Notes under the pieces: generated by a model
Databases searched by the model: none
Told to the model about the DNA's origin: nothing
Seen by the model: the letters and a program-made list of their open reading frames with translations, nothing else
Translations under genes and position numbers: made by a program
Assembly (NCBI GenBank): GCA_963920765.1
Contig: OY987244.1
Span: 374,501-438,500, forward strand
Direction of reading: 5' to 3'
DNA length: 64,000 nucleotides
Source of the DNA: Ulota crispa
Lineage: Eukaryota; Streptophyta; Bryopsida; Orthotrichales; Orthotrichaceae
Shown here: positions 1,691-64,000 of the stretch, one piece after another
Position numbering within the stretch: position 1 is the stretch's first letter
Layout of the letters: every line of letters begins with the position of its first letter

Positions 1691-1920
1691 TTAAACCCTG
1701 AAGGGCCCAAACGCCCTTTGTGGCCATATGTATGCAGCATGTATAGATGTATTTGAGCTATTATAAGGTCTTTTCAAAAAAAATATGCACCCATCATCAT
1801 ACAACTCTTTAATATGTATGGTTGTAATATTTAAATTTCAGCTCATTCAAACTTTTGAATATTAATTGCGACCGTATTTGGTACCGTAATGCCAGAGCCC
1901 AAGGGTCCTTCATATGTTAA
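1691..1920. mobile_element. TTAA-bounded MITE, 230-bp class (copy 1)
   Basis: Begins TTAAACCCTGAAGGGCCC and ends AAGGGTCCTTCATATGTTAA. The same element recurs in inverted orientation at 33798-34011, sharing the ACCGTATTTGGTACCGTAATG and CATCATACAACtt-type core. It abuts the next TTAA element directly and shares its TTAA (1917-1920). No coding capacity. Confidence 0.7.
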
Positions 1921-2158
1921 CCCTTACAAGATTGAGCTACTCTAATACATAGTTTGTACGATGCTGTATAATTGGCATTTGTTACCAACAAAAAGTTTTA
2001 ATTTGAGATCTTGACTACCTCACTAGAACAGCATTAATCTATATTCTAACTTCTTTGTTGATCTCAAATGTAATAAAGGTGTGGATGCATTCCAAATACA
2101 AGAAAAATACCCCGTATTGTACTAGTCGCAAAGGGTTGCTTAGTCGTTCAAGGGTTAA
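1917..2158. mobile_element. TTAA-bounded MITE, 242-bp class (copy 1)
   Basis: Starts TTAACCCTTACAAGATTGAG and ends TCGTTCAAGGGTTAA. The core (TATACAGCATxGTxCATACTATGTATT and GTGCATCCACACCTTTATT, read on the minus strand) recurs at 16407 and 38363. It shares TTAA at both ends with its neighbours, so three TTAA elements lie head to tail from 1691. Confidence 0.75.
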
Positions 2159-2373
2159 CCCCTAAAGGATGTTGCCTACTAAAAGTGGTGGACTGTATTC
2201 ATACAAGGACCATTTAGTACATGAAGAAGTGGCTTTCTATTAAATGCCAACAATTCACCAAAAAATCCTAGTTGACTGGTAGTATGTTCATGACTTGATT
2301 TAAAATTTACAACTCCAATGGGATTCGTGTGTTACTCAAATACCCCATTTGTATACAACACAAGAGAACATAT
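2155..2373 (+). mobile_element. Left end of a further TTAA element, right end lost
   Basis: TTAACCCCTAAAGGATG at 2155 is a canonical left terminus directly continuing from the preceding element. No matching right terminus was found before another left-type end at 2374, so this is a remnant, or the outer part of an element interrupted at 2374. Confidence 0.4.
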
Positions 2374-3287
2374 ATAACCCTTTAAGGACCACTTGACCAA
2401 ATTTTGGTTGCTAGGAGTGGTTGATGGCCTGTAGATTGAAATTGCTCAATAATTTGGAATTTGGTCTTGAAGAGCGAATGTGATCACAAGAATTTTGCAT
2501 CCATCTAAAAAAATAACAATGCAATTGAGTATGTGAGTTGACAAATAATGGTGTTTATACGGCATGGCTTCAAAATATGTATCTATTTTTTTGTCAAAGA
2601 TGGATCAAAGCAACAACACAATACATCAAGTATGCAAGAAGAATGTCAAATTTCAATTGCACAATTCTAAAAAAAATCAAATTGCTTAAAAAATATGCTT
2701 GTATTGTTTTCCTCTATGGTAGTAGTATAATTTTAGTATTTGAAAATCTACTAAAATAATGTTGTCATTTTGGCTTTAAATTTGTCATCCTACAGTTAAG
2801 GCCAATTCTTGATTGCTTTCAACAATTGGATTTTCCAAAATAATTATCAAATTTCTTATAGAACCGTTTTAGGGTAGCAAAGAAAGTGGGATTTTTAGCC
2901 CTTTTTGTCCACTTAGCTACACCTTGTGATTGCTATTTTTGTCTATTTTCTATGAAACCAGCCTTATTGTAAAGGTGAGAAACAATGCTTTTTAGAAATG
3001 TAAGGCTCTTTTCAATCAAAACCTACATGAAGAGTTAACATTTAAAACCACACAAGCATGAAACACTAGAGATTTTCCGCATATGGCTCACTCAATCATT
3101 ATAATGTTTCACCCCAACGATAGATCTAGCTGGAATTTTTGTGCTTTACAGTAAACAAGGTTTATTTCCCATATGTACAATTGGATTATTGAAAATGGGT
3201 CCATATTTGAGTCAATTGCACATTTAAGCTTACAGCCCATGTTTTTAGTGGATTTTGTGAAAATGGGTGTGGTCCTTAAAGGGATAA
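2374..3287. mobile_element. TTAA-type element with ATAA target duplication, 914 bp
   Basis: Left end is ATAA followed by CCCTTTAAGGACC; right end is GGTCCTTAAAGGG followed by ATAA. Because ATAA is not palindromic, its presence in the same orientation on both sides marks a 4-bp target-site duplication rather than part of the inverted repeat. Length is close to the 925-bp class but the interior is diverged. No coding capacity. Confidence 0.55.
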
Positions 3288-3310
3288 TAGTCAGCAATAT
3301 CTTTTAGAGG

Positions 3311-4219
3311 TCCTCTAAAAGCCCATTGCCCTTGGGGGGACAAAATGGATTTTGGGCACCTTTGTTCTATTGAGATTTTTTATCAATCATTTTGAATTTT
3401 ATTTTTGAAGTGGAGTTTTGCAAGGGTATTGTGGGAGTACAACTTTTTATTCAAATTCAACTTACTCACTTACTATTCAAAACTTGCAAGTATTTTATGG
3501 GTAATTTTTGAAGTAGTGGAAGTCTAGGCATGTCATTTTTATCAACTTCTCCCAAGGACAATCAATGAAGGCATGACCCTTCATTGGAGTATATCCAAAG
3601 CAATAGTGTACTAGATGAATATATTATTGTACTTGATAAATACACTAACTTTTGAATTGCAATAGCTACTAGAGATTTCATTTTTTTTCCAATTTTTTTG
3701 GTGATTTTCAATAAAGATAAAACCTTCCATTCTACCTTTGAGATATTTGTTTTTCAAGAGAAACAATTGGAAATTGGTTTGCAAAGAACATTAGTGTCGT
3801 GTGAATTTGAAGCACATGTTTGCAATATAGGCCCATAAAAGATATGTTCCAAGCTTTTTTGGCCATGAAAAGTTGAAAACTTGTGAAAACATGCCTAACA
3901 TGATTTGACGCATGATGGAAAAAACTCTGTGGCATACGTAGTACAAAAAATGTTCACAACATGTGATCAAAGGGACCTAAAATTTTTGGGCAGAGGTCCA
4001 AAAAAACTCTTTTTACTAACTTCCAATGCTCATAACTCTCAATCCATATGGTCAAATCTCATGAAAATTTCAGCATGGCTCCTTGTATAAGTCTAACACA
4101 TGACCCCATGTTTAGATTTGTATAAAAACTTTAGATATTTTTCTTGGGATCAAGTGACTGAAAATGGCAATTTTCAGTATTTTTTCAAAAAGAATGTGTC
4201 TGGGCATTTTAAGGGTTAA
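3311..4219. mobile_element. Degenerate TTAA-type element
   Basis: The right end is TTTTAAGGGTTAA (to 4219). The left end near 3311 (CCTCTAAAAGCCCATTGCCC) looks like a decayed copy of CCCCTAAAGGACCATTGTCCC. The interior near 3960-4110 (AACTCTCAATCC, GGTCAAATC) is shared with the long elements at 34681 and inside the CACTA element near 37500. Confidence 0.4.
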
Positions 4220-4237
4220 TTTGTAGCAGTTTAACCC

Positions 4238-7528: not shown

Positions 7529-7531
<3 letters not shown>
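7144..7531. mobile_element. TA-flanked GGAATTGC family MITE, left end in gap
   Basis: The right end is GGGTGTGGCTTTAGCAATTCCC followed by TA. Just after the gap, AATGCCACACCCTAAGG is the partner of that end. A GAGCATGAAATTTGAGAA / TTCTCAAATTACATGCTC pair gives long inverted arms. The sister copy starts 30 bases downstream. Confidence 0.6.
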
Positions 7532-7560: not shown

Positions 7561-7563
<3 letters not shown>

Positions 7564-8029: not shown

Positions 8030-8452
8030 TAAGGTATTTACACCCATAAGCGTCATATTAAGAATTTTGGATTAGGAAAATTAATTTATGAACTTTAAAA
8101 ATAATATTGTCAAGTTAGGAAGAGGAAACCAAAAATACTAGCATCAATTTCAAAGTTCCAACTTCAAGCATTTGTTTAGAAAGAATTTTCAAAGTCCAAA
8201 ATCACTAAAATTGTATAGTTGTGTGTAAGAGATGCTAAAAACAATGCTTATTGGTTCTTAAATAGTGAGATGAGGCACTCAAAATTATCATGTTAGTCAC
8301 CCAAAATCATCACTTTGTTACCCATAACCATCACTCCCTCACCCACAACCATCACTTTTGCACCCATAAGCATTTAATTTTGTATTTTTTAATCCCTAAC
8401 ATGACAGGTGACGCCCATAGGGACACTGGCACTTATGGGTGTACATACCTTA
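8030..8452. mobile_element. TA/AAGGTA...ACACCCATAAGC MITE
   Basis: Left end TAAGGTATTTACACCCATAA, right end TTATGGGTGTACATACCTTA. It belongs to the same broad AAGGTA family as the copies at 6135 and 22483. Near 8290-8370 there is a short run of ACCCATAACCATCACTxx units. Its last bases TTA form part of the TTAA of the next element, which shows one family providing the insertion site of another. Confidence 0.7.
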
Positions 8453-9374
8453 ACCCCTAAAGGACCATTGTCCCTTTAGGGGACAAATGGGATTTCGGGC
8501 ATGTACCTATGGCTACACTACTTTGTATAATTTTCTAAACCTTTTATTGAAGGTGAGGAATTCAAAGATCTATGTGGGAATATAAATTTTTCTTCACTCT
8601 GACATTTATTGAAGAAGTTATGCATGAAAATCTAGAAAATGCTGCTCCCTGGGCAGCCAAAAACTTCTTTAAAAATTTCATTTTTTTCAAATAAAAATCT
8701 GATATAGGTTCTTTAGACTTATATAGACATGGAGAGCTTTGAATCATTCAATTTTGATAGATGAGATGAAAGTTATGAGGAGTTTTTGTTTGCAGGCAAT
8801 TCTAGATTCTCTACTCTAAAATAAACTTTGAAGTCCTTTATTTTACTCAATTTTCAATATTTTGGAAAAAAAACAAAACCAAAGGATGTAGATTGTTTAT
8901 CACAACATTATAACTTTTGGGATTTGCATTTTTCATTTTAATAATTTAGTTCTTAAAAATTTAATGTTTTGACTCATTCTCTACTTCTTTTTACTTCCTA
9001 TTTTTTCCCATGTGTTGTATAGTTCCATTTGATTTGAAAATTCTCCCACACATATCTAACTTGGTCTCCTACATGGGAAAAATAAACCTCAACTTTGTGT
9101 AGAGTAATGTTTTTGCTCTAAGAGTGGTCAAAGCCTTCTGAAATTTCTGGGCTGCAGCAAAAAAAATTCTACAATTCAGATATAAATATCTCACTCATTT
9201 TTGTGTAGATTGAGTTGATTTTTTTACCGCGTGTATCTCTTGTAGTCTACTATAAGATCTTACGGTTGAATTCTTGTAAAAATATTTTTTTTCTTATCAT
9301 TGTACTTGCTTCCTCAAAAGTGACAATTTTCTGTGTTTTTCACAGAAAAAATGGCTTGATCCTTTAGGGGTTAA
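8450..9374 (+). mobile_element. TTAA-bounded element, 925-bp class, copy 1
   Basis: Perfectly bounded by TTAA. Left end TTAACCCCTAAAGGACC, right end GATCCTTTAGGGGTTAA. Sister copies: 17104-18026 (923 bp, same orientation), 21404-22341 (938 bp, inverted), 9633-10901 (inverted, interrupted), 60588 (interrupted) and 63663 (runs off the window). The first 360 bp are the arm used in the 726-bp foldbacks. No coding capacity in any frame, so it must depend on a transposase elsewhere. Confidence 0.85.
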
Positions 9375-11382: not shown

Positions 11383-11477
11383 TTAACCCTTAAACGCCTA
11401 GGGGGGTAACCGTGGATACACGGCCTCCATGTATTTGAGGCGGATGCAAAACGTCCGCCTCAACGTTTAAAGGTTAA
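11383..11477. mobile_element. 95-bp TTAA mini-element with hairpin
   Basis: Left end TTAACCCTTAAACGCC, right end GTTTAAAGGTTAA. The interior is GC-richer than the surroundings and contains two small hairpins: CCGTGGATACACGG near 11410 and GAGGCGGA paired with TCCGCCTC near 11440-11461. It is one of the smallest members of the TTAA set. Confidence 0.6.
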
Positions 11478-17103: not shown

Positions 17104-18026
17104 TTAACTCCTAAAGGACCGTCCTCTTGGGGATGAGTGTTACTTTGGACATGTACCTTTGGATAAGCTACTTTTTCAGAGTTTTTGAAACTTTTATTGA
17201 AGGTGGGGAATTTAAAGACCTACGTGGGCATCTATTGTTTTTTTCATTTTGACATTTGACAATGAAGTTATGCTTGAATTTATGAAAATTTGGGGAGGAT
17301 TGCCCATCCATGCAGCCCAAAAAACTTCTTCAAAAATTAAAACTTTCAAGATTTTTTTTTTTTGAAATTGGTTCTTTAGATTTTTTTGTATACATGGGAA
17401 GCTTTGAATCATTCAATTTCAATCAATGAGATGAAAGTTATGAAATGTTTTTGTTTGCGGGCAATTTTAGATTCTCTACTCTAAAATAAACTTTGAAGTC
17501 CTTTATTTTACTCAATTTTCAATATTTTGGAAAAAAATTAAACCAAAGGAAGTAGATTGTTTATTACAACATTATAATGGTTGGGATTTGCAGTTTTGAT
17601 TTCAAACATTAAATTCTTAACAATTTAATGTTTTGACTCATTCTCTACTTCTTTTTACTTACTATCTTTTCCCCATGTGTTGTATAGTTCCAATTGATTT
17701 GAAAATTCTCCCACATATACCTAGTTTGATCTCCTACATGGAAAAATAAAAGCTCAACTTTGGGTAGAGCAATTTTTTCATATAAAGGTGGTTAAAGGAT
17801 TCTGAAATTAACGAGCAGCACAAACTTTTTTTTTTTAAATTCTCATTTCAGATGTAAATATCTCCCTCCTCTCCATCTGGAATGACTTGATTTTTTTTCC
17901 CACAAGTACCTCTTCTAGTTTAAGGCAAGATCTTACGATTGGATTCCCAAAAAAAAAAAAAAAAAAAAAAATGGCACTTTTTCAATGATTTTGACAGAAA
18001 AAAGAGCTTGATCCTTTAGGGGTTAA
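17104..18026 (+). mobile_element. TTAA-bounded 925-bp class, copy 3
   Basis: Left end TTAACTCCTAAAGGACC, right end GATCCTTTAGGGGTTAA. Co-linear along its full 923 bp with 8450-9374. A run of 23 A at 17949-17971 has expanded near the right end. No coding capacity. Confidence 0.8.
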
Positions 18027-19153: not shown

Positions 19154-20200
19154 TTAACTCCTAAATGCTTGAGGCACCAAATTTTGGTGTTCATAATAAT
19201 TTGAAGTTCAATAAAACCTAACTAAGTTTCTATTTCAATACTTTCTATTTTTGAATTATTCTTTTTGAAGTTTAGTTTTAGCATCAAAAAACAGATTTTG
19301 AAAATGAATAGTTATGATTTTTCTACTCAAGATTTTGTGCAAGGGTGTTCACTGCAATCTTGACTTTTTGAGCAGATTTGGCATAAAATAAATTTCCAAA
19401 ATTTAGCCTAATAATCCTATAAATTATTCTCCAAAAATGCCCAATGTCAAATAAAACTAAAAACTAAATTGTCCAATATTGTAAAAGTCATTAAGCCTAG
19501 CTAATTATGGGAGGTCAAGGCTAATTATAGGAGGGCTCAATCTAGTGCAAACTCTATACCCAGGCCTAATTTTGGAAAGTAGAAGATGCTTTAAGGCTTG
19601 ATTCTACTATAAAAAAATAGTTGTTTGTCATATAGTAACAAATTTTTTTTAAATACCTAATCTTTATCTAATTGCTAAACTTGATGCCAAATCAAAATTT
19701 TCTCTAAAAATAATTAATTTGGTAGTTGACTATCAAATTTGCTCTCAACCTAGAGTACTATCGAGAGCTCTTGGAAGTGAGCCTCAAATACACTAGATCT
19801 TGGAGAAAAATCTACACTCAAAATTCATTTAAAAAATTTAAAAAATTTGTAAAAGAAATTTTGAAAAGTAGTAAATTGGTAGAGTTATGTATGTTATGTC
19901 CTTTAACCTCATATGTTTTTGGTGACCAATTTTTTAGTTTTGACATGTGAAAAGAGGATGGAAAGACTTCAAGTCATTTTCAAAGTTTTATCACCCTCAT
20001 GATCAAACATTATAATCTTTCAATCCATAAATGATATTTTTGTGTTTTTTTTTCCTATGTAATATATAACATATCTAATTTGTATTTGTACATTTAGAAT
20101 ATTGAAAAATTGATACAACTTATCAAAATGTTAACTTTTTGTTCAATTTAGAGCAGATTCCTAGAAGCTCAACAAAGGTCTCGGGCATTTTAGGGGTGAA
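19154..20200. mobile_element. TTAA-type element, 640-bp class with 400-bp extra sequence
   Basis: Left end TTAACTCCTAAATGC, right end GCATTTTAGGGGTGAA (TTAA decayed to TGAA). Both ends are co-linear with 27976-28616 and 56992-57638, including GCACCAAATTTTGGTGTT near the left and CCTAGAAGCTCAACAAAGG near the right. About 400 bp around 19360-19740 is absent from the other two copies, so it is either an insertion or an ancestral part lost from the shorter copies. Confidence 0.65.
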
Positions 20201-20420: not shown

Positions 20421-20668
20421 TTAACCCCTGAGCGCCCAAGGGGCCAAAATATGGCCTCTTGGTTTTGAAAAATTTCCTTGTTTGATCGTTATGATCTTTT
20501 CAAAGGTACGGTGAAAGGACGGGTCCTTTTCCTTGAAGCTTCGGGCCTATGTGCACTACCAATCAATACGGTCAATTTTTGTGAATCTCTTTTAGGTGAT
20601 AGTTTGATTGGAATGAATTCCAAAGGGTTTGGATTTTAGTGAACTTGTGCTAGGCGCTTAGGGGTTAA
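20421..20668. mobile_element. TTAA-bounded MITE, 248 bp
   Basis: Left end TTAACCCCTGAGCGCC, right end GGCGCTTAGGGGTTAA: perfect TTAA flanks and a near-perfect 16-base inverted repeat. The interior is comparatively GC-rich and is not seen elsewhere in the window. Confidence 0.75.
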
Positions 20669-21403: not shown

Positions 21404-22341
21404 TTAGCCCCTCAAGGACCATGCTTTTTTTTCTGTCAAAATCACTGAAAATTGTCACTTCTAGGGGATGAGTAAGAAGGTAGGATTTTTTTTTTTGGGA
21501 AATCCAACCGTAGGATCTTGTCTTAGATTAGAAGAGGTACTTGTGAGAAAAAAATCAAATCATTCTAAACGGAGAGGAGGGAGGTATTTACATTTGAAGT
21601 GCAAAAAAAAGGTTTTTTTTTGTGCTGTCCAAAAAATTCAAAAGCCTTTGACCACTATTACATGAAATAAATTGCTCTACACAAAGTTGAGGTTTATTTT
21701 TTCCATGTAGAAGACAAAGTTAGGCATGTGTGGGAGAATTTTCAAACCAATTGGAACTATACAACACATGGGAAAAAAATAGTAAGTAAGAAGAAGTAGA
21801 GAATGAGTCAAATCACTAAATTGATAAGAACTTAATTATTGAAATGAAAAATGCAAATCCCAACAGTTATAATGTTGTGACAAACAATCTACTTCCTTAG
21901 GTTTAGTTTTTTCTCCAAAATATTGAAAATTGTGGAAAGTAAAGGACTTCAAAGTTTAATTTAGAGTAGAGGATCCATAACTGCCCACAAACTAAGACAT
22001 CTCATAACTTTCATTTCATTGATTGAAATGGAATGATTCAAAGCTTCCCACATATAAAAAAAATCTGAAGAACCAATTTCAGATTTTTAATTTTAAAAGG
22101 TGCAATTTTTAAAGAAGTTTTTGGATTGCCAAAATTTTCCTCCTTCTCCTGGGCAGCAAAAATTCTTGCATAACTTCTTCATTATATGTCAGAATGAGAA
22201 AAAAATCAGATACCCACATAGATCTTTGAATTCCCCATCTTCCATAAAAGGTTCAAAAATTTACAGAAAGTAGTTTAACCATAGGTACATGCCCGAAATT
22301 CCAATTGTTCCCCGAAGGGACGTTGGTCCTTTAGGGGTTAA
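21404..22341 (-). mobile_element. TTAA-type 925-bp class, inverted, copy 4
   Basis: Left end TTAGCCCCTCAAGGACC (TTAA decayed to TTAG), right end GGTCCTTTAGGGGTTAA. At 938 bp it is co-linear with the reverse complement of 8450-9374. It gives one of the empty sites used to define the insertion at 9942. Confidence 0.8.
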
Positions 22342-24706: not shown

Positions 24707-25632
24707 TTAAACCCCTAAAGCAGTGAACACCCTTTTTTGGCAACATAGCAACCTTGGGCAGCTCACTACCAATTGGATTTTCATTTTTCTTCTTTGATAT
24801 TTTCACACATGATGTGTCCAAGGAGTAGCTTTAAGGCCCAACTATTTTCATAATTTTGACTTCATGGTTCAAAATTTATTGCATGATATGTTGTTTTCTT
24901 TGCTTAGTGAACAGCCATAAAACTTCTTTAAAAATTATATTTATTGAACTTTGTGTTTTGAAATTGGTTCCTTAGATTTGTATATACTTGGAAAGCTTTG
25001 AATCATTCCATTTTTATCAATAGGATGAAGGTTATGAGGAGATTTTGTTTATAGACAGTTATGGATTCTTTACTCTAAAATAAACTTTAAAGTCTATTAA
25101 TTTACTCAATATTCGATATTTTAGAAGAAAAAACATCCCAAAAGATGTAGATTTATCACAACATTACAACCATTGCGATTGGAATTTTTCATTTCCATAA
25201 TGAAGTTCTTAACAATTTAGTGGTTTGAATCATTCTCTACTTCTTTTTACTTATTATTTTTTTTCCATGTGTTTTACAATTCCAAATGATTTGAAAATTT
25301 TCAAGTGTGTACCTGACTTGCTTTGAAGAACAAATCCAAAAAATTACAACCATTTTGGAGTTTTTCATACAAATATGACCTTGTGAAGTGCAGCTGCCCG
25401 GATTTTTGCAGAGACAAAAAATGACTTTTTGTCAATTCAAACTCAAATATCTAACAATCTACATGGTGAAAACTCCTGAATTTGTTTCACATCTTTTGAT
25501 ACTAGTGTAGCACAAGATCTTATAGCTATGTTTGTCAAAAGAATTTTTTTTCTAAAATTTGGCACTTGTACTAAAAATGATAGTTTTGGAGTGGTTTTGG
25601 TGAAAATTTGAGCTTAGTGCTTTAGGGGTTAA
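24707..25632. mobile_element. TTAA-bounded element, 926 bp, AGCTTAGTGC class
   Basis: Left end TTAAACCCCTAAAGC, right end GCTTTAGGGGTTAA. Similar in length to the 925-bp class but with a distinct interior, shared with 38610-40055 and partly (inverted) with 4238-5771; for example TTTGGCAACATAGCAA near the left and GAGCTTAGTGCTTTAGGG at the right. Confidence 0.7.
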
Positions 25633-27975: not shown

Positions 27976-28616
27976 GTAACCCTTAAATGCCTGCGGCACC
28001 AAATTTTGGTGTTGTTAATACTTTGAAGTTCACCAAATCTAACTAAGCTGCTATTTTTAGTAGTTTACAATTTTGCAGCGTTCTTCTTGAAGTCTAGTTT
28101 TAGCATCAAAATTTTGATTTTGAAAATGATTGTTTATGATTTTTTTGTTCAAGATTTTATACAAGGATCTTGACGTTCCTTAGTGTTGAGAGCTCTTTGA
28201 AATGAGTCTCAAATACACTAGATCTTGGAAAAAAAATTACTCTAAAAATCATTTAAAAAAAACTTAGTAGAGATTTTGAAAAGCCGTAAAGTGATTGGAG
28301 TTACATGTAATGTGTTCTCTAACCATTTATTTTTTTGGTGACCAACTTTTTAGATTCAACATGTGAAAAGAGGATAGAAAGACTACAAGTCATATTTGCA
28401 ATTTCAACACCCTCATGATCAAACATTATAATCTTTCAATTCATAAGTGATATTGTTGTGTTTTTTTTTCTTATGTAATCTCTAACATATCTAGTTTGAA
28501 TTTGTACGGTTACAATCTTAAAAAATTTGAGACTACTTATTAAAATGTTGGCTTTTTGTTCAGACGAGAGCAAATTCCTAGAAGCTCAAAAAAGGCCTCA
28601 GGCATTTAGGGATTAA
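27976..28616. mobile_element. TTAA-type element, 640-bp class, copy 2
   Basis: Left end GTAACCCTTAAATGCC, right end GGCATTTAGGGATTAA. At 641 bp it is co-linear with 56992-57638 (647 bp) and with the two ends of 19154-20200. A small hairpin GGCACCAAATTTTGGTGTT sits just inside the left end. No coding capacity. Confidence 0.75.
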
Positions 28617-28630: not shown

Positions 28631-29356
28631 TTAACCCCTAAAGGCCCAAGTGCCCCTTGGGGGCCAAGTGGGGTTTTGGGCATGTACTTATAGCTAAACT
28701 ACTTGTTTGATTTTTTGAAACTTTTATGGAAGATGGGAAATTCAAAAATCTACGTAGGCATCTAATTTTTTCTTCATTCTGACATTTATTGAAGAAGTTA
28801 AAAATGAATTTCTCAAGAACAAAGTAAGGTGGGCAGCCCAAAAAACTTCTTTAAAAGTTGCATTTAAAAAAAGTAAAAACATGAAATAGGTTCTTTAGAC
28901 TTATACATATGTGAGGAGCTTTGAATCATTCAATTCTGATTGATGAGATGAAAGTTATGAGAAGTTTTAGTTTGCTAGTAGGTATAGTTTCTCTCAAAAC
29001 CACACCTACTAGCAAACTAAAACTTCTCATAACTTACATCTCATCAATCAAAATTGGATGATTCAAAGCTCCCCATGCATATATAAGTCTACAAAACCTA
29101 TTTTAGATTTTTATTTTTAAAAAATGCAATTTTTAAGTAAGTTTTTGGGTTGCCCGCCCTCCTCTATTTTCCAAAAATTCATTTTTAACTTCTCCAATAA
29201 ATGTCAAAATGAAGAAAAAATTAAATGCCCACTTAGATTTTTGAATTCCCCATCTTCCATAAAAAATTCAAAAAATCACACAAGTAATTTAGCTGTAAGT
29301 ACATGCTTGAAACCCCACTTGGCCCCTGAGGGGCCACTTGGGCCTTTAGGGGTGTT
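28631..29356. mobile_element. 726-bp foldback element, copy 1
   Basis: Left end TTAACCCCTAAAGGCCC, right end GGGCCTTTAGGGGTG (TTAA decayed). The element is one long palindrome: each ~350-base arm is the left arm of the 925-bp class, joined head to head at a short AGTAGGTATAG / CTACTAGCAAAC centre near 28975-29010. Copies at 50369 and 59476 have exactly the same length. A read-through transcript would be a very long double-stranded hairpin. Confidence 0.85.
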
Positions 29357-38609: not shown

Positions 38610-40055
38610 AAAGGACCAAGCTATATTTTTGGCAACATAGCAATTTCAAGCAAGTGCATGAAATTGGAGATTTTCATGCTTTAGGTTGGTTTTAGAAGGT
38701 GTGTATGAGGATTATCTTTCATATGCACTAAATTTCAATGCATTTGGAATTATGAGCAAAAGTTATGGCCAAATATGTTACTTCTTTTCTTGGCCATGAA
38801 GTTTGGATAGATTAGAAAAATTTAGGTTTTTCAAAAACAAAAATTCAAAACTAGTTTAAGCCCTAAAGGACCATTGTCCCTTTTGGGGACAAATGGGATT
38901 TCAAGCATGTACCTATGGCTAAGCTTCTTTCTGTGATTTTTTGAAACTTTTATTGAAGGTGAGGGTTTCAAAGATCTATGTGGAAATGTCATTCTTTCTT
39001 CATTCTGACATTTATTGAAGAAGTTAAAAATGAAAATTTAGAAAATGATGCTCCCCAGGCAGCCAAAAACTTCTTTAAAAATTTCATTTTTTTCAAATAA
39101 AGATATGATATAGGTTCTTTAGACTTATTGACTTACATAGACGTGGGGAGCTTTGAATCATTCAATTTTGATAGATGAGATGAAAGTTATGAGAAGTTTT
39201 AGTTTGTGGGTAGGTGTGGTTTCTCAATTTTCATTTTTAATTTCTTCAATAAATGTCAAAATGAAGAAAAAATTACATTCCCACGTAGATCTTTGAAATC
39301 CTCACCTTCAATAAAAGTTTCAAAAAATCACGTAAAGTAGTTAAGCCATAGGTACATGCCTAAAATCCCATTTGTCCTCTGAAGGGACAATGGTCCTTTA
39401 GGGATTTATGTGTATGTGGAAAGCTTTGAATCATTCCATTTTGATCAATGAGATAAAAAATTATGAGCACTTTTTGTTTGCGAGTAGTTATAGATTCTCT
39501 ATTGAAAAAAAATTGAAGTCATTTATTTTACTCAATTTTCAATATTTAGGAAAAAATAAAAGGTAACGTAATTTATTTATTATAATTGCAAAATTGTTGG
39601 GATTGGCATTATTCATTTCCACAAATAAATTTAACAATTTAGTGTTTTGAACATTCTCTACTTCTATTTGCTTACTATTATTTCCCATGTGTTGTACAGT
39701 TCCAAATGATTTGAAAATTTTCAAGTATACATCCAACTTGCTTTGGAGAATGAATCCAAAGAGTTATAAGCATTTTGAAAAAAATTCATACAAATGTGAC
39801 CTTGTGAAGTATAAGTGCCCAAGTTTTTGCAAGGACAAAAAATGGCTTTTTGTTAATTCAAACTCATAAGTATCTTACAATCTACATGGTGGAATTTTTT
39901 GAGTTTTTTTCTGCATATTTTGAAACTTTTGTTCCACACAATCTTATAGTTCTGTGTATGAAAAAGTGTTCTTTCCTAAAATTCGGTACGGGTTTTAGAA
40001 GTGGCAATTTTGGAGCGGTTTTGATGAAAATATAGCTTAGTGCTTTAGGGATTAA
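38610..40055. mobile_element. TTAA-type element interrupted by a foldback
   Basis: Left end is decayed (CGTAAAGGACCAAGCTAT), right end GTGCTTTAGGGATTAA. Without the foldback nested at 38856-39408 it is about 890 bp and co-linear with 24707-25632. It lies within the CACTA element. Confidence 0.55.
38856..39408. mobile_element. Shortened foldback element, 553 bp
   Basis: Left end TTAAGCCCTAAAGGACC, right end GGTCCTTTAGGGATTTA. The left arm is full length (as in the 925-bp class), but the right arm is shorter: after TTTTAGTTTGTGGGTAGGTG the sequence jumps straight to the outer part of the opposite arm. It looks like a 726-bp foldback with an internal deletion. Confidence 0.7.
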
Positions 40056-41558: not shown

Positions 41559-41960
41559 TAAGGAAGGAGGCTTTGAAACCGTCCAAGCATTAATCCCTAA
41601 ATGCCCAAGGCACCAAATTTTGGTGTTCCAAACACCAAAGTTTGATGACTTGAGCATGTAGGGGTTAAAACTGTCCACTTTCTCAAATGTATGCTCTTTG
41701 TACATGCTGTCTTTATAGGCTTCAGAAATGTACAAGTAGAGTACATTTGAGGAGGTGGACAATTTTAGAGCCCTATGCACTTCAACTTCAAATTTTCATA
41801 ACTATGTCCACAAAGTTTGAAAAATTATGAAACAACTTGAGTTAGATGCCAATTCCTCTTGTCTTTCAAGAAAAATTTACTGAAATTTTTTTCAAAAAGT
41901 TTCACCTCCCCAAAATCTAGTTTTAGCGCTTAGATGGACGGTTTATGAGCCTCCTACCTA
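41559..41960. mobile_element. TA/AAGGTAGGAGGC MITE, copy 3, with nested 79-bp element
   Basis: Left end TAAGGAAGGAGGCT, right end ATGAGCCTCCTACCTA, flanked by TA. Interior matches 1099-1432 and 9942-10271. A 79-bp TTAA element is nested at 41590. Confidence 0.75.
41590..41668. mobile_element. 79-bp TTAA mini-element, copy 1
   Basis: Left end TTAATCCCTAAATGCCCAAG, right end TTGAGCATGTAGGGGTTAA. Interior GGCACCAAATTTTGGTGTTC and AACACCAAAGTTTG folds back. The copy at 62037 is also 79 bp. Its flanks here (AAACCGTCCA at the left, AAACTGTCCA at the right) look duplicated compared with the empty site in sister elements. Confidence 0.7.
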
Positions 41961-42430: not shown

Positions 42431-42644
42431 CACTTGTCTTTTTTCTCACATTTCATTTCCATTTCCGTGTTGCTTTTGTCTTACAAAGTTGGGTTTTTGG
42501 TTAACTATCTTTTAACTCGGTATGCTTTCTCCTGCCTTAGAACATGGCAATTTTGGCCAACTCGCTTTGAACTTGATATACTTTCTCTTGCTGTTGTTCT
42601 TGCTTTCAAAGGTGCTAGCTTGAAGCTCTTCACAAGTTTTGTTT

Positions 42645-42893
42645 TGTCTTAGTTCAAGTGCATTGGAATTGCTTCTTAGGGTTTGTTGTGTCTTAGTTCA
42701 AGTGCATTGGAATTGCTTCTTAGGGTTTGTTGTGTCTTAGTTCAAGTGCATTGGAGTTGCTTCTTAGGATTTGTTGTGTCTTAGTTCAAGCCCATTGGAT
42801 TTGCTTCTTAGGATTTGTTGTGTCTTAGTTCAAGCGCATTGGAATTGCTTCTTAGGGTTTGTTGTGTCTTAGTTCAAGCGCATTGGAATTTCT
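42645..42893. repeat. 44-bp tandem repeat, about 5.7 copies
   Basis: Unit TGTCTTAGTTCAAGTGCATT plus GGAATTGCTTCTTAGGGTTTGTTG. Starts at 42645, 42689, 42733, 42777, 42821 and 42865, an exact 44-base period with few substitutions. It lies in the middle of the 8.75-kb CACTA element. Confidence 0.95.
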
Positions 42894-42999
42894 TGACTAT
42901 TGGTGTATGAAGCCGTTGAACGTAATAAAAGCATTGACTATTGGCATCTTGCATTGTGATCTCCCTTTAAATAATAGAATTCGTATTGTCCATAAGATT

Positions 43000-45612: not shown

Positions 45613-45893
45613 TTAACCCTTAAAATTTTTAGCAACCCAAAATGGGTTGATTGAGTTTTAGAACTACCATTTATGAACTTTGGAATGTAAAGAGTCACTT
45701 GAACTTTGGCTCATTTGAAAGAGAAACAAATTAGCTATGTAATGGTGTTTTCAGATTTAGAAGAAGAGTCACTTATTGAATTTACATAAGTTTTCAAACC
45801 ATGGGTGGTCTTGGAGTTGTAGTGTTAAATTTTGGCCCTAGATTTGTGAAAATCTTCTATTTTACTCACAAATTTTAGAACTTAAGGGTGAAG
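45613..45893. mobile_element. Possible TTAA-type element, 281 bp
   Basis: Left end TTAACCCTTAAAATTT and right end TTTTAGAACTTAAGGGTGAA. The match is weaker than for other members and no sister copy was found, so this is tentative. Confidence 0.3.
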
Positions 45894-46621
45894 TGGTCAC
45901 TATTCCAAGACCATCTTCTCACTCATATTTTACCCAAAAAATACAAGACTTGTTTCTATGCATGTGGAACTCGATTACCTTGAGAATGAGCATAAGATGC
46001 CAGCTTTTTAAAATATTATGTGTCCAAAAGAGCCAACCAAAGCACAATTTTAACTACTCCAAAATATTGGTTTCCTTGTAGTACCCTTCACATTTTTGTT
46101 ATAATCTTCCAATTTAACCCTTGGATTGAAACCAAACTTTGTAAAGATGATAAGGACTTGGCTTTCTACAAGATCTTACAGTTACTTTGGCCTAAAAATG
46201 ACTCATTGTATACTTCAAACTTCACCCTTTCATAATTTACACAATTGAGATCCAAAACACCTTCAAAATGACTGAAAATTTTAATGGTTAAGGTAACCAA
46301 TGTCAAAACGAGGTAAAATTACAACCAAATTTAGCCCAAATAAGTTTCTTGTTAGAAGTAGCAAAACATATTACAAACCATGCTAAAACTTCACCATCAA
46401 AATGGAGAATTTAGAATTTTCCTAACGATGAACAAATTTTGGTGTAGGTTTGATTTAGCCACATTTGTATCTGTTACAAAGTCTCTTTATGCCCACGTTT
46501 TTTGAAGCAAGTTTATTTTGGAAAAATACTTATTTTTAGAAGGGCCTCTTATTTTCCATTATGTTGGAAGTAGTACCACACAATAGTCTTCTTGTCACGT
46601 GTACACATCTATCTCTTTATA
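45894..46621. other. AT-rich sequence, nothing recognised
   Basis: A lone TTAACCCTTGGATTG end-like motif occurs near 46114. No gene or complete element is supported. Confidence 0.35.
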
Positions 46622-47216
46622 GGGGATTGATATGTCTACCACACCCTTTCAGCTATTCTACCACATCCTTTTAATTATTCTACCACACCCTTTCAGCTAT
46701 TCTACCACATCCTTTTAATTATTCTACCACACCCTTTCAGCTATTCTACCACACCCTTTTAGTTATTCTACCACACCCTTTTAGTTATTCTACCACACCC
46801 TTTCAGCTATTCTACCACACCCTTTCAGTTATTCTACCACACCCCTGGGTCTGGGGGTAAATTTTAGATTTCTACCATCACAAAGCTGAATTTGAGAATT
46901 TGGAATTCAAATTTGGATTAAGAGATCGTGATTTAGTCTAGAATCATAAAAAGGTTCTAATTGAACAACACCCAATGGAAAAGCTAATCTTTTTTTATAA
47001 ACAAAGGTAAAAGTAATACTTTTCCCCTGAGCTAAACTTTTTTGTTAGGTGTTGTTCAATTACAACCTTTTTTATGGTTCTAGACAAAATCAAGGTCTCT
47101 AAGTCCAAATCTGAATTTTAAATTCTCAAGTTCAACTATTTGGTGGTAGAAATCTAAAATTTACCCCGGGGGTGTGGTAGAATAGTTGAAAGGGTGTGGT
47201 GGACATATCAATCCCC
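46622..47216. mobile_element. GGGGATTGATATGTC foldback element, copy 1
   Basis: Left end GGGGATTGATATGTCTACCA, right end TGGTGGACATATCAATCCCC. Long arms meet near 47030; the centre carries AACAACACCCAATGGAAAAGCT and TATAAACAAAGGTAAAAGTA. The left arm has an expanded 22-bp tandem array derived from the subterminal CTACCACACCC motif. A second copy is at 55447. No coding capacity. Confidence 0.8.
46636..46846. repeat. 22-bp tandem array in a transposon end
   Basis: Unit CTACCACACCCTTTCAGCTA plus TT. Starts are exactly 22 bases apart from 46636 to 46834, giving nine full copies and a partial tenth. Alternating variants (CATCCTTTTAATTATT and CACCCTTTCAGCTATT) show a two-unit step early in the array. 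The opposite arm has only two copies. Confidence 0.95.
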
Positions 47217-50368: not shown

Positions 50369-51094
50369 ATAACCCCTAAAGGACCACTTGTCCCTATGGG
50401 GGACAAACGTGATTTCCAGCATGTGCTTATGACTAAACTACTTTGTGTAATTTTTTGAAACTTTTATGGAAGATGGGGAATTCAAAGCTCTGTGTGGGCA
50501 TCTAATTTTTTCCTCATTCTAACATTTATTGAAGAAGTTAAAAATGAATTTATGAGAACTTTTGTTTGGTGGGCACCCCAAAAAAATATTTAAAAATTGC
50601 ATTTTTTAAAATAAAAATTTGAGGATAGTTCTTTAGACTTATGTATATATGGGAAGCTTTGAATCATTCAATTCTAATTGATGAGATGAAAGTTATGAGA
50701 AGTTTTAGTTGCCAGGTAGGTGTGGAAAATCTCAAAACTATGCCTAGACGCAAACTAAGACTTCTCATAATTTTCATCTCATTAATTGGAAATGAATGAT
50801 TCAAAGCTGCCCATGTATATGTAAGTCTAAAGAATTAACCTCAAATTTTTATTTAAAAAAATACAATTTTTAAAGAATTTTTTTGGATGCGTGCCAAACT
50901 AAAACTCTCATAAATTCATTTTCAACTTCTTCAATAAATGTCGGAATGAGGAAAAAATTAGATGCCCACACACATTTTTGAATTCCCCATCTTCTTTAAA
51001 AGTTTCAAAAATTTACACAAAGTAGTGTAGTCATAAGTATATGCCCAAAATCCCACTTGTCCCTTGTAGGGACAACAGGTCCTTTAGGGGTTAA
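50369..51094. mobile_element. 726-bp foldback element, copy 2
   Basis: Left end ATAACCCCTAAAGGACC (TTAA decayed), right end GGTCCTTTAGGGGTTAA. Same length and organisation as 28631-29356 and 59476-60201; the centre near 50715-50760 reads AGGTAGGTGTGG / CTATGCCTAGACG. No coding capacity. Confidence 0.85.
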
Positions 51095-53195: not shown

Positions 53196-54600
53196 ACCTT
53201 TTGAAGATCTTTTGGGAATTTTTTGTGAATCTTTAAGAATCTTCAAGAATCTTTTGGGAATCGTTGAGAATCTTTTCAAGATTTTTAAGAATATATAAGA
53301 ATCTTTTTGAGATTTCAGAATCTTTGAGAATCTTTTAGGAATCTTCATGAATCTTTGGAAATCTTTTGGAATCTTTTCAGGTTTTTTTGGAATGTTTGAG
53401 AATGTTTGAGAATGTTTGAGAATGTTTGAGAATCTTTGAGAATCTTTTAGGAATCTTTGAGAATCTTTTGAAATTTTTGGGAATCTTTTCAAATTTTTTT
53501 GGAATCTTTGAGAGTGTTTGAGAACAATTGAGAATCTTCGAGAATCTTTGAGAATCTTTGAGAATCTTTTAGGAATCTTTCAGAATCTTTTGAAATCTTT
53601 GGAAATCGTTTCAAGTTTTTTTGGAATCTTTAAGAATGTTTGAGAACAATTGAGAAACTTTGAGAATCTTTGAGAATCTTTGAGAATCTTTGAGAATCTT
53701 TTGGAATCTTTGAGAATCTTTGAGAATCTTGTTGGAATCTTTGAGAATCTTTTGGAATCTTTGAGAATCTTTGGAATCTTTTGAAACCTTTCCAAGTTTT
53801 TTTGGAATCTTTGAGAATGTTGAGAACAATTGAGAATCTTTGAGAATCTTTTAGGAATCTTTGAGAATCTTTGAGAATCTTTGAGAATCTTTGAGAATCT
53901 TTGAGAATCTTTGAGAATCTTTGAGAATCTTTTTGGAATCTTTGAGAATCTTTGAGAATCTTTTGAAACCTTTCCAAGTTTTTTGGAATCTTTGAGAATG
54001 TTTGAGAACAATTGAGAATCTTTGAGAATCTTTTAGGAATCTTTTGGAATCTTTGAGAAACTTTTGGAATCTTTTGAAACCTTTCCAAGTTTTTTTGGAA
54101 TCTTTGAGAATGTTTGAGAACAATTGAGAATCTTTGAGAATCTTTTAGGAATCTTTGAGAATCTTTGAGAATCTTTGGGAATCTTTTCAAGTTTTTTTAG
54201 AATCTTTGAGAATGTTTGAGAACAATTGAGAATCTTTGAGAATCTTTTAGGAATCTTTGGAAATCTTTTCAAATTTTTTTGGACTCTTCGAGAATGTTTG
54301 AGAACAATTGAGAATCATTGAGAATCTTTGAGAATCTCTTTGGAATCTTCAAGAATCTTTAGAAATCCTTGAGAATCTTTGAGAATCTTTTAAGAATCTT
54401 TGAGAATCATTTGGAATCTTTGGGAATCTTTTAAAGTATTTTGGAATCTTTGAGAATGTTTGAGAACAATTGAGAATCTTTGAGAATCTTTGGGAATCTT
54501 TTGAGAATCTTTTTTGAAATTCAAAAAATCTTTGAAAATCTCTAAGAATTTTCAAGAACCTTTTTGGAATCTTTGAGAGTCTTTTTAAATCTTTATGAAA
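53196..54600. repeat. 10-bp GAGAATCTTT minisatellite with higher-order structure
   Basis: About 1.4 kb of GAGAATCTTT units and variants (GGAATCTTTT, AGGAATCTTT). A marker phrase GAGAACAATTGAGAA occurs at 53520, 53642, 53822, 54004, 54116, 54218, 54300 and 54462, preceded by TTTTTTTGGAATCTTTGAGAATGTTT; spacings 122, 180, 182, 112, 102, 82, 162 differ by roughly multiples of the 10-bp unit. On the minus strand no frame has a stop, and all three give the same DSQRFSKILK repeat, so the long frames there are not genes. Confidence 0.95.
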
Positions 54601-56991: not shown

Positions 56992-57638
56992 TTAACCCCT
57001 AAATGCCCAAGTGACCAGATTTGTGTCTTTACAAAACTTTGAATATCAATAAAACCTTATCAAATCACTATTTTCAGTGTTTTTTTCAGAAAAAGTTTGT
57101 CTTGAAGTCTATTTTCAACATCAAAAATTTGATTTTGAAAATGAAAGTTGATGATTTTTCTACTCAAGATTTTGTACAAGGGTGTCCACTGCAATCTTGA
57201 GTTTTTTAGTGTTATGAGACCTTGATAACAAGCCTCAAATACACTAGAGCTTGGAGAAAAATCCACATCAAAAATGCATTAAAAAAATAGAGGAGTAGAC
57301 TTTGAAAGCTGTAAATTGATTAAAGTTAGACATGTCATAACCTTAAACCCCTTATTTTTTTGGTTACCAACTTTTTAGATTTGACATTTGAAATGAGGAT
57401 TAGAAGACTTCAAGTCATTTTTGCAATTTTGACACTCTCATGATCAAAAATTATAACCATTCAATCTATAAATGATGTTGTTGTGTTTTTTCCCCTATGT
57501 AATCTTTAACATATCTAGTTTAAATTTGTATGGCTACAATTCTAAAAATTGATACAACTTATTAAAATGTTGACTTTTGGTTCAATTTAGAGAAAATTCC
57601 TAGAAGCTCAACAAAGGCCTCAAACATTTAGGGGTTAA
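56992..57638. mobile_element. TTAA-bounded element, 640-bp class, copy 3
   Basis: Left end TTAACCCCTAAATGCCC, right end ACATTTAGGGGTTAA, perfect TTAA on both sides. Co-linear with 27976-28616 (for example CTACTCAAGATTTTGTACAA and TTCCTAGAAGCTCAACAAAG). It is the best-preserved member of this class here. Confidence 0.8.
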
Positions 57639-59475: not shown

Positions 59476-60201
59476 TTAACCGCTAAAGGACCACTTGTCC
59501 CTATGGGGGACAAATGGGATTTCAGGCATGTACTTATGGCTAAACTACTTTGTGTAATTTTTAGAAACTTTTATGGAAGATGGGGAATTCAAAAATCTAT
59601 GTGGGCATCTAAATTTTTCCTCATTCCAATATTTATTGAAGAAGTTAAAAATGGATTTATGAGATTTTTTTGTTTAGCGGGCAGCCCAAAAACTTTTTAA
59701 AAATTACATTTTTTTAAAACAAAAATTTGAGGTTAGTTCTTTAGACTTATGTATATGTGGGAAGCTTTGAATCATTCCATTCTAATTGATGAGATGAAAG
59801 TTATGAGAAGTTTTAGTTTACGGGTAGGTGTGGAAAATCTCAAAACTATACCTACAAGCAAAATAAAACTTCTCATAACTTTTATCTCATCAATTAGAAT
59901 TGAATGATTCAAAGCTTCCACATATATGTAAGTCTAGAGAACTAACCTCAAATTTTATCTTAAAAAATATATATATTTTAAAGAAGTTTTTGGGCTGCCC
60001 ACTAAACAAAAATTCTCATAAATCCATTTTTAACTTCTTCAATAAATGTTGGAATGAGGAAAAATTAGTTACCTACATAAATTTTTGAATTCTCCATCTT
60101 CCATAAAAGTTTCAAAAAATCACACTAAGTAGTTTAGCCATAAGTCCATACCCAAAATCCCATTTTTCCCCCAAGCGGACACTTGGTCCTTTAGGGGTTA
60201 A
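59476..60201. mobile_element. 726-bp foldback element, copy 3
   Basis: Left end TTAACCGCTAAAGGACC, right end GGTCCTTTAGGGGTTAA with TTAA on both sides. Co-linear with the copies at 28631 and 50369. The centre near 59820-59865 reads CGGGTAGGTGTGG / CTATACCTACAAGC. Confidence 0.85.
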
Positions 60202-60587: not shown

Positions 60588-61798
60588 TTAACCCCTAAAG
60601 GACCAACTGGTCAAGGGACAAATGGATTTTGAGCATGTACCTACACCTAAACTAGTTTGTATAATTTTTTGAAACTTTAATTGGAGATGAGGAATTCAAA
60701 GATCTACATGGCTATCTAATTTTTTTTTCATTATGATATTTGACAAAAAAATTATCAAGAATTATTCAAAATTAGGGGAGAAGGGGCAATTTGGGCGGGG
60801 CCTCTTCTTTGTAAGTGGGTGTTGACTCCAAAGAGGGTTAGCCATTAGGAAGGAATTCAGCCCTCCAAAGGGTTGTGAGTTTTGGTTGTTCCCAATGCTA
60901 GGAACTAGCCCTTGTTGGTTGTCAGAAAATTTAATTAAAAAAATAAAAACAAAAACCTTTGAAAAAACAAGATTTTATTTTTATTTTTTTGATTTGTTTC
61001 TTCTAAAATTAGATTATCTGATATGGTCAAACTTCGACTAGGTCAGATTGAGCATGTGGCAATGTGCCCATGATGGGCTCAAAGCTCCCATGGTTTTGGA
61101 GAAGGGGCCCTTTCTTGGGCCCAAATTCCCCGGAAGGGCCTTTTGGGCATAAGGTGTGGGCATTTGGGCAAAGTGGAGTGGAGTGGAGTGGAAGGGGCCC
61201 TTCTTGGGAAACTCCCAACCCTCCATTCCTTTTGCCCCTTGCAAAATTTGGTACTCTAATATTTTAAGTAGTTTTTTTTTTTTTTTTTTTTTTTTTTTCT
61301 TTTTTTCTTTTCTAAGTTGCAGTAAACCAAGATTCCTTGGTTTTCACCGTTTTGATCAAAGTCATCCAAATTTCTGAATTTTACAAAAATCCTCCAATTT
61401 TGAGTAATGCAATTGAAAATTTCATGACCTTCTAGCATTCAAAGATTTTTTGAAGTATGCTGCACACCCCAACTCATTTGAAAATCCTCCCACACATACC
61501 TTACTTGGTCTTCTACATGAAAAAAATAAACCTCAACTTTGTATAAAGCAATTTTTTTGCTATAAGAGTGGTCAAAGACTTTTGAAATTTTTGGGCAAGG
61601 TAAAATTTTTTTTTGTCACTTCAAATATCAATATGTCACTCCTCTACATTTAGAATAAGTTGGATTTTTTTCCACAACTACCTCTTGTAGTCTAGGGCAA
61701 GATACAATAATCGGATTTTCAAAAAAAAAAAATTGTACTTTTCTACTCATTCCCCCAAAACTGGCAGTGACTTTTACAAAAAAAGGGCTTGATCCTTT
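60588..61798 (+). mobile_element. TTAA 925-bp class with foreign core, cut by CACTA
   Basis: Left end TTAACCCCTAAAGGACC; the left ~195 bp and the stretch from about 61460 to 61798 follow the 925-bp class. The middle is replaced by unrelated sequence (see 60785-61455). The right terminus GATCCTTT breaks off exactly where a CACTA end begins at 61799, leaving the last ~9 bases outside. Confidence 0.7.
60785..61455. other. Foreign core inside a TTAA element
   Basis: In the other 925-bp copies this position holds about 390 bp of shared sequence; here it is replaced by about 670 bp not seen elsewhere in the window. It includes GC-rich parts (GGGCGGGGCCTCTTC, GGGGCCCTTTCTTGGGCCC), a GTGGA pentamer run near 61176-61192 and a 27-base T run from 61272. 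It resembles host DNA captured by the element. Confidence 0.45.
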
Positions 61799-62036
61799 CA
61801 CTAGTAGAAATTGGGTCCTAATCAAGTGGTCCTAATCAACACAAACATGTCCTAATCAACATTGCTATGTTCAAAACGTCATAATCAAAATGTCCAAATC
61901 AAAACAATATTGTTGATTAGGGTCATGTTTTCCCTTAAATTTAGGGATTAAATGGATGAACATAAGATGACTGTGAGCCACTAAAAATATTGCTTATTTC
62001 TTTCTATATTTATTCATAAAAGCGTCATCATAACAA

Positions 62037-62115
62037 TTAACCCCTAAATGCCCACAACACCAAAATGTGGTATTTTCAACACTAAAATTTGGGACTGTGG
62101 GCATTTAGGGGTTAA
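62037..62115. mobile_element. 79-bp TTAA mini-element, copy 2
   Basis: Left end TTAACCCCTAAATGCCCACA, right end TGTGGGCATTTAGGGGTTAA: a perfect 20-base inverted repeat including TTAA. The remaining 39 bases (AACACTAAAATTTGGG and similar) also pair partly, so it folds into a compact stem of pre-miRNA size. Same length as 41590-41668. Confidence 0.85.
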
Positions 62116-63662
62116 AAAGTTTTGAAATTGTAAAAAGAAATTATTTTTTGTTTTTTTATGCTTATAAACTAACTAATTGGAAATAAGTAAATGACTAATT
62201 GTCTAATTTTAAGTTAAACATCAAAAGGACCAATCTTGGACTTGTAACAAGTCTTATGCACTTTTATTTGGATGCTAATATCAAGAGATGAAGAACTCTT
62301 TTTATTGAAATTGATCTAATACTTTGAATAGAACATATCATTAATGATAACATTGCACAAGTCTAGGATATCCTAAAAGAAAAACTATCCAAATTGACAC
62401 ATCTAAACTATCCAAATTGACACATCTATATTGACTAAATGTGTTTGAAATGATAAAAAATTTCAATCGTGACAAAAAAAATGTCCAAATCAGCAAGTCC
62501 AAATGACAAAAAATGTCAAAATAGACATTGTTATCTTGTAATTGATGGTTTTAAACTCAATTTTAAATGAAATCAAAAATGTTTTTGAATGGAATGTTCC
62601 ATTAAAGTCTAGATTTAGATTAAAAATCTTATGATGTTTCCGGTAGCTCCTATTATCTTGTATTTACCTAAACATAGAACCCTTGATACACGATTCAAAT
62701 TTAAATGTCTTCATTTTAACATAAAACAATGATTGCAACATTCTATTGATTTCGTTTGGTTAAATTAAAAAGAAAACCTTGTAACCTTTACAAAAAGAAT
62801 TCCAAATGACCCATTGTTTAGGAAGCATTTTTGTTGTAAAGTGAGTTAGAAAATTTCTTGAGATTTTTTTCATGAACTTTTATTGATACCACAGAACAAG
62901 GTCTATTTTTCTAGATATTTTTACTTGATAATTACATACACAAACGATGGAATGTTTTTTTGAACAGGGTGCACAAAGTGAAAATGTGAAAAAATCTGGT
63001 GCTTGAAATGTAAAACTTTAACGGTCCACAAAAAAATCTTATTGCCTTGTCAGTATCTTTAGTAAAACCTGATCCAACACTTTAGTGATTGAGCATTTTA
63101 TGTCTTTTAAATGTAGTAATTATAATTGGTAAATACTGTAAAAATTAAAGGGTCAAAGTTAGCTTCTATAGAATAATATGGTTTTATTTATTTATTTACT
63201 TATTTATTCCACTTGTCCAAGTGCACTTTGCCTTGAAATTGTTTGGGCAACCTAGTGATCTTTGAATACTTTAGCAATCATGGTTGTTTTTATACTTAAA
63301 CGTTATTATCATCATTGTTATCTAGTGGCTTACCAAAAAGCGTGTTTACAAATTACAATTGGGGCCATAATTGACCACACTCACACACCCAAGAGTTAGT
63401 AAAAGGGCCAAGCTCATGATTGTACTTAAGCTTAAGCAAAAACCAACCAAATTTAATGTCGATAATTGAAATATGTCTCTAAAACGGATGTGAATGGGGA
63501 GGAGGCCTGGGGTGAATATCCATGCTAGCCCTTGAATTGAATTGAAAAAACGTAAAAGCAATAAAAGAAAAATATCAGATATCGATAAACTTATTGGTTA
63601 TATTGGGTTTTCCTATTATATGTCAACATGAAAGTTCACCCTTGACCCTTAAAGGATGCATT
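62116..63662. other. AT-rich sequence, nothing coding
   Basis: Contains the direct repeat AACTATCCAAATTGACACATCTA (in shortened form, 62383-62429) and a TTTATT/TTAC run near 63184-63210. If the CACTA element at 61799 is long, this is its interior. Confidence 0.4.
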
Positions 63663-64000
63663 TTAACCCCTAATGGACCAAGTCCATTTTTCTTTGAAAA
63701 ATACTGAAAATTGTCAGTTTTGGGGGAATGAGTAGAAAGGTAGAAAAAGAAGTTTTTTGAAAATTCAATCGTAAGATCTTGCCCTATACTATGGGAGGTA
63801 CTTGTGGGAAAAATTTCAGCTCATTCTAGAAGTAGATGAGTGAGATATTGACATTTGAAGTGGAAAAAAGAGTTTTTTTCCCTACTGCCCATAATTTTCA
63901 GAAGCCTTTGACGGCTCCTATATCAAAAATATTGCTTTATGCAAAGTTGAGGTTTATTTTTCCCATGTAGAAGACCAAATTAGGCAAATGTGGGAGAATT
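63663..64000 (-). mobile_element. TTAA 925-bp class, inverted, runs off window
   Basis: Left end TTAACCCCTAATGGACC followed by the same order of motifs as 21404 (GGGGAATGAGTAGAAAGGTAG, GTACTTGTGGGAAAA, CATGTAGAAGACCAAATTAG). It continues past position 64000. Confidence 0.75.

Follow-up and report, generated by a model that had tools for sequence, protein, structure and literature searches.

Which transposase, if any single one, moves the short repeats that crowd a 64,000-base stretch of moss DNA, and do they amount to a radiation of piggyBac-like elements in a plant? The stretch ('the window' hereafter) is C3:374501-438500 of the Ulota crispa assembly (274,817,297 bases), and its repeats share a short inverted terminus that follows TTAA and begins with CCC. 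Their sequences make it very probable that they are non-autonomous cut-and-paste DNA transposons (miniature inverted-repeat transposable elements, MITEs) of the piggyBac superfamily, with several related transposase lineages probably acting. The original prediction, that piggyBac-like MITEs have radiated in a plant, is well supported, because the sites are TTAA, the ends are short and start with CCC, matches to the piggyBac transposase family PF13843 number at least 120, and transposase-bearing elements have similar ends; fixed element boundaries, the likeness of a 914-bp element to the end of the transposase-bearing element L042, and MITEs seated in TTAA at the end of L042 and apparently of L040 lead the same way.

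In this scheme, piggyBac transposases encoded elsewhere would recognise inverted ends of the form TTAA-CCCCTAAA[G/T]G[A/C]CC and its variants; the transposase would cut the element out and insert it into TTAA, leaving TTAA on either side; and several related lineages, not one, would probably be at work. We infer mobilization in trans by a piggyBac transposase, and likewise which transposase moved the CCCCTAAA class; the partner would carry PF13843 between CCCCTAAAGGACC or CCCCTAAATGCCC ends.

The window was compared with stretches from elsewhere in the same assembly, labelled with L and a number (L042, for example). Eight of the sampled loci were drawn because they contain the exact terminus, and another six because it was listed there, which biases the sample toward intact ends; L015-L028, 140 kb, were picked by coordinate. 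Comparisons for second copies, nesting and empty sites cover the window and the sampled loci.

The terminus and its target site

The terminus TTAACCCCTAAA occurs exactly 16 times in the window (seven on the plus strand, nine on the minus), and 40 times with at most one mismatch, where 100 shuffles give 0.97 on average and never more than 4. Across the assembly there are 30,972 exact copies (15,477 + 15,495) against 77 (41 + 36) for the reversed control pattern. One might take such repeats for chance or telomere-like sequence, as CCCTAAA, the plant telomere unit, appears once in the terminus; more than 30,000 copies against 77, the fixed facing boundaries, and the lack of telomere-like arrays in the window and sampled loci make that so improbable as to be negligible.

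An exact TTAA precedes 82 of the 104 CCCCTAAA sites in the window and 38 loci, these partly chosen for the terminus; ATAA, CTAA and GTAA precede one each, and the base outside the TTAA is near uniform. In the window alone, TTAA stands at 16 of 23 such sites. The outer T is kept in 82 of 85 NTAA-CCCCTAAA sites, so that the pattern is not that of a Tc1/mariner (Stowaway) MITE, whose TA target has free outer bases. The profile of 82 MITE ends reads TTAACCCCTAAA[G/T]G[A/C]CCAAG, with CCCCT or CCCTT at the start and conservation reaching about base 20. Past base 12 the terminus varies (GGACC, TGCCC, CGCCC), and there are CCCTT classes besides. These ends have the form of the short terminal inverted repeat, 12-19 bp with a CC[C/T]T motif, given in the accessible part of PMC2872659; a CCCC start is not the most usual form, yet is present there in coral family III. 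Termini also stand back to back on one common TTAA (TTTAGGGGTTAACCCCTAAA) at 335 places in the assembly, ~2.4-fold the ~140 expected under independence (our own estimate from copy counts and TTAA density).

Empty sites were sought by joining the flanks of an insertion through one TTAA. Spanning matches numbered 71 for 432 trial pairs; seven insertions were examined, and others among the listed pairs were dropped, mostly as wrong pairs or as matches within one flank's repeat. In four of the five gap-free insertions the nearest empty relative has a single TTAA: window 50369-51094 (one relative, in L023, at 82%); L021:6170-7105 (six relatives, five with TTAA and one with TTTA; best 90-91%); L021:5571-7417 (one relative, 87%); and L017:5904-6627 (32 relatives, 28 ungapped, two with TTAA, the nearest, at 93% in the host repeat's facing arm, having TTAA). 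Empty relatives of L019:3740-5435 and window 45613-46291 are gapped. The expectation of TTAA at empty sites thus held for four insertions and failed for L009:3028-4512, weighed below. The symmetric TTAA would favour a duplication of 4 bases over the 3-base TTA/TAA duplication of PIF/Harbinger (Tourist) MITEs.

Transposases and the ends of their elements

Matches to PF13843 above cut-off number at least 120 in the assembly, a lower bound in that scoring covered 116 of 528 candidates. Most rows carry stops, 10 of the 120 being free of any within the match, and 14 control genomes gave no PF13843 match. A Pfam check confirmed the open reading frames (ORFs) of L039-L042, and that of L040 matches the solved-structure sequences 6x67 ('Transposase'), which we take to be piggyBac, and 9c0f ('piggyBat transposase'). 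In a protein search 16 relatives emerged, the closest of them at 53% across 91% of the query. In addition, piggyBac matches of equal score lie paired in opposite orientation on C7 and C2, with a near-equal pair on C10; these may resemble L013/L014 (C1:900001-920000), an inverted duplication in which a 223-codon ORF and stretches of 1,784 and 2,334 bases are repeated in mirror order, 99.9-100% identical; such arrangements may be true palindromes or assembly artefacts.

A single transposase moving many unrelated passengers was the mechanism first suggested, and one 12-base terminus common to many size classes would suit it. The transposases found are diverse, however: four query loci show 28-68% identity to the other loci read; L029 and L038 share 90% of their DNA sequence; and a search with the L040 ORF gave 92 rows, 40 of them at 50% identity or above, where one locus can give several rows. 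This diversity leaves one transposase for all unsupported, and since terminal sequences differ after base 12 and in the CCCTT classes, and several classes have interior DNA in common, we regard it as unlikely.

The reading covered 14 of the at least 120 transposase loci and placed the right end in seven of the 14. The L042 element spans 1194 (TTAACCCATTAAGGATCAGTTGACC) to 6849 (TTGACCCTTTAAGGACCGTGGTTGATT in reverse complement), with 5.66 kb between the ends; its end TTGACCCTTTAAGGACC differs from the MITE terminus at 3 of 17 bases. Alignment of L029 with L038 stops at TTAACCCTTCATTGCC, beyond which the flanks differ. The right ends of L040 and L033 are TTAACCCTTTAGCGACCATGGTTGATT and TTAACCCTTTAATGACCATGGTCATT, and across the three related loci L033, L040 and L042 the right ends compare as TTAACCCTTTAATGACCATGG, TTAACCCTTTAGCGACCATGG and TTGACCCTTTAAGGACCGTGG. 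On MITE-profile positions 8-18, which leave out CCC, the scores of the seven piggyBac ends rank within the top 0.6-2.5% against a background of 4,144 TTAA sites that lack a following CCC. The left end of L029, as an exact pattern, occurs at 14 places in the assembly, near L029 only at its right end; a longer MITE-end pattern occurs at 24 places. L042-type right ends (at most three mismatches) number 413, with a control of 0, and a by-eye comparison of 100 of these with the transposase places found only L040 to coincide.

The 914-bp element at window 2374-3287 (plus strand) has L042-type (piggyBac) ends: its first bases agree with the L042 left end at 22 of 25, its outer TTAA now being ATAA and TTAT/ATAA. 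It has 40 scored places, itself included, among 2,404 first-look candidates; the likeness runs over about its full length, at 89-91% for the other places. A 969-bp CCCCTAAA MITE (L042:6846-7814) abuts the L042 end at the same TTAA site, and a 914-type MITE (L040:1-636) stands at the left end of L040, apparently in a TTAA inside L040's own terminus. As to a common terminus, then, the 914-bp class is close to L042, and the CCCCTAAA class is similar to, not identical with, piggyBac ends.

Several observations weigh against a piggyBac origin. TTAA is found in none of the 12 ungapped relatives of L009:3028-4512 (16 in all), which are distant (75-84%); and, judged by TTAA alone, a 4-base TTAA duplication would look the same as a duplication of TA within a TTAA target. 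The profile match of the piggyBac ends is modest, below the MITE median, L029 and L038 being lowest. The ends of L034 and L041 are candidates, taken from downstream TTAACCCTT sites that may be chance neighbours, such termini being common. The interior DNA of the CCCCTAAA MITEs has no match to the sampled piggyBac loci, and among the 14 loci read no transposase-bearing element has the exact CCCCTAAA terminus; the proposed search for a piggyBac domain with flanking ends thus yielded the domain and similar ends, not the exact one. Around the ten best piggyBac matches, out to 1.5 kb, TTAACCCCTAAA likewise lies at no end (one two-mismatch match is inside L032), a span too narrow for the purpose, as piggyBac elements extend further and their ends are CCCTT-type.

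Another TTAA- or TA-inserting superfamily (Sola3 or Kolobok, which insert at TTAA, or Tc1/mariner) might then have made the CCCCTAAA elements, the piggyBacs being separate. The exact end missing from the 14 loci fits this, as do the two positions at which CCCCTAAA differs from CCCTTTAA and the presence of further DNA-transposon superfamilies, for example 150 matches to PF13359 (Harbinger-type DDE_Tnp_4), many with no stop inside the match. Yet the likeness to the L042 terminal inverted repeat reaches base 17 (GGACC); the outer T, fixed in those 82 of 85 sites, means that the target is not merely TA; and, judged by eye, the 914-bp and ~925-bp classes have similar right subterminal bases. No other superfamily was seen to carry the terminus in the loci read, the ends of PF13359 matches lying outside that reading. 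Such an origin we consider quite improbable, and the piggyBac MITE interpretation is retained below.

Element classes, scale and age

Element groups were built from facing terminus pairs that recur elsewhere with both boundaries. From 337 trial pairs came 22 groups with 71 members, a few of them overlapping candidates; nine groups were discarded as sub-fragments or overlaps and 13 kept (~925-985, ~645, ~958, ~921, 726, ~640, 928, 79, ~226, ~765, 1784, ~677 and ~241 bp), of which the 1784-bp one rests solely on the L013/L014 duplication. A member in the window and one or more independent copies that match it at both boundaries are found for the classes of 79, ~241, ~640, ~677, 726 and ~925 bp. 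The claim of a shared terminus on many elements of tight length therefore stands for 79, ~241, ~640, 726 and ~925 bp; lengths of 95 and 248 bp have no confirmed second copy. The ~230-bp class has two copies, in L005 and L016, outside the window, and the 914-bp class, present in the window, was absent from the first list.

The ~925-bp class (F0) is represented at 8450-9374 and 17104-18026 (plus strand) and 21404-22341 (minus), both boundaries recurring in other copies; related to it are a 925-bp element outside the confirmed groups, with partial relatives only (24708-25632), and a candidate 553-bp palindromic element (38856-39408). Both boundaries recur likewise for the ~640-bp class (F1) at 27976-28616 and 56992-57638, the 79-bp class (F10) at 41590-41668 and 62037-62115, and the 726-bp class (F4) at 50369-51094 and 59476-60201, the last multi-copy; a further 726-class element (28631-29352) aligns at full length to 726-bp elements and has lost its right TTAA. 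The ~241-bp element (F21; 1917-2158), with TTAACCCTT ends, recurs in L025 with both boundaries kept, and the ~677-bp element (F17; 45613-46291), with TTAACCCTTAAA ends, has a second copy in L015. Candidates are a 1047-bp element (19154-20200) whose second half is like the ~640-bp class, a 95-bp element (11383-11477) with facing termini only, and a 248-bp element (20421-20668) with facing termini and a partial relative solely in L009 (178 bases, 71%).

The interiors are less varied than the 'at least eight unrelated classes' first described. Measured as the longest single blastn alignment over query length (E 1e-5), the two ~640-bp groups (F1 and F6; ~645 and ~640 bp) are one family, with 89-91% of length aligned; the 79-bp class falls inside it (58%); and the ~925-bp group has length in common with the 928-bp (57%), 726-bp (41-53%), ~921-bp (22%) and ~958-bp (16-17%) groups. 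The ~226-, ~765-, ~677- and 1784-bp groups stand alone in this comparison, and the ~241-bp group has only a short alignment to another. None of the ten stop-to-stop ORFs of at least 110 aa in the window overlaps a listed element, and an Rfam search of the window gave no match. That the CCCCTAAA MITEs arose from the sampled piggyBacs by simple deletion was considered and rejected, as no common interior DNA was seen.

The element at 50369-51094 is a near-complete palindrome with 341-base arms, 87% complementary, and is predicted to fold as a single hairpin (-449 kcal/mol, z -43.7 against 20 shuffles); if transcribed, it could feed production of small interfering RNA. Nesting occurs as well. Of the nested pair in L021, 1,847 minus 936 leaves 911, near the 914-bp class in size, and the flanks match that class. 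At L017:5587-7048 a palindromic element of ~738 bp (1,462 minus 724) holds a 724-bp 726-class element near its middle, like into like.

The kept groups cover 23.6% of the window and 11.1% of the 140 kb picked by coordinate (0-35% per locus), rough figures in that the library comes partly from the same DNA. Exact ends make up 33 of the 70 ends of confirmed elements outside terminus-fetched loci, and mean element length is 726 bp; arithmetic from the exact-end fraction, rather than a count, gives an estimate of ~66,000 ends, ~33,000 elements and 24 Mb. The broader picture, of several divergent piggyBac lineages at animal-like scale, with ~30,000 MITEs filling ~1/10 of a 275-Mb moss genome, often nested and in part palindromic with potential hairpin RNAs, we hold with confidence evenly divided. 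The 726-bp element at 59476-60201 has 40 scored places, itself included, among 8,385 candidates, the others at 88-90%. Because the best scored non-self copies are 90% (726-bp family) and 91% (914-bp family) identical and most transposase matches carry stops, an old burst of these two families is suggested.

Tandem arrays also lie in the window: ~127 copies of a 10-base unit, TTTGAGAATC, at 53222-54594, where the minus strand has three overlapping open frames (150-188 codons) with a repetitive SQRFSKI-type peptide; 5.8 copies of a 44-base unit (95%) at 42638-42894; and 9.5 copies of a 22-base unit (88%) at 46635-46844.

Comparison with known systems

PiggyBac transposons are known mainly from animals. 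In plants they are occasional, as in red algae (PMC12732532, in part). No report of such a piggyBac MITE expansion in a moss was found in a literature search that left subscription papers mostly outside. The available text of the Ulota crispa genome note has no word starting 'transpos' (PMC11803377); the word piggyBac is absent from the accessible main text of a Physcomitrium study (PMC7466625), and in a Niphotrichum moss paper the 'piggybac' matches are 'piggybacking' (PMC10619864).

That a moss has at least 120 transposase matches, and TTAA-bounded ends in the tens of thousands, suggests that the piggyBac superfamily can become a large part of land plant DNA. Bryophyte repeat annotation gains a concrete terminus to search, and plant piggyBac ends and transposases are now available for cross-mobilization tests. 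If the expansion is confined to a moss lineage, horizontal entry may be indicated.

Physcomitrium PpTc1 and PpTc2 are moss DNA transposons too, but of the mariner-type superfamily (PMC7466625, portion available). The fern Ceratopteris, likewise a seedless plant, has 1,230 PiggyBac copies (122 kb) in its repeat table, 0.00% of the assembly, against ~11% of the 140-kb Ulota sample (PMC6890710, portion available). Animal piggyBac elements resemble those of Ulota in TTAA duplication, CCC starts (CCCTT, CCCAT, CCCTTT) and a PF13843-type transposase; intact beetle elements are 2.1-3.5 kb, against 5.66 kb for L042 (PMC10813416 and PMC12732532, both in part). Unlike intact animal piggyBac, Ulota has few PF13843 rows free of stops (10 of 120).

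The closest described case is the coral CMITEs, for which the accessible part of PMC2872659 is the source throughout. There, as in Ulota, CMITEs and Acropora piggyBac have TTAA on either side, several families and an empty allele with TTAA; CMITE ends include CCCTTTAAGCCCTA and CCCCTCAGTGTCCG, and piggyBac transposases are present in the same genome, one with the left end CCCTTTAACGCCC. The coral elements are ~100 bp, with a conserved interior and ~1,600 copies estimated, whereas those of Ulota range from 79 to ~985 bp and present tens of thousands of ends.

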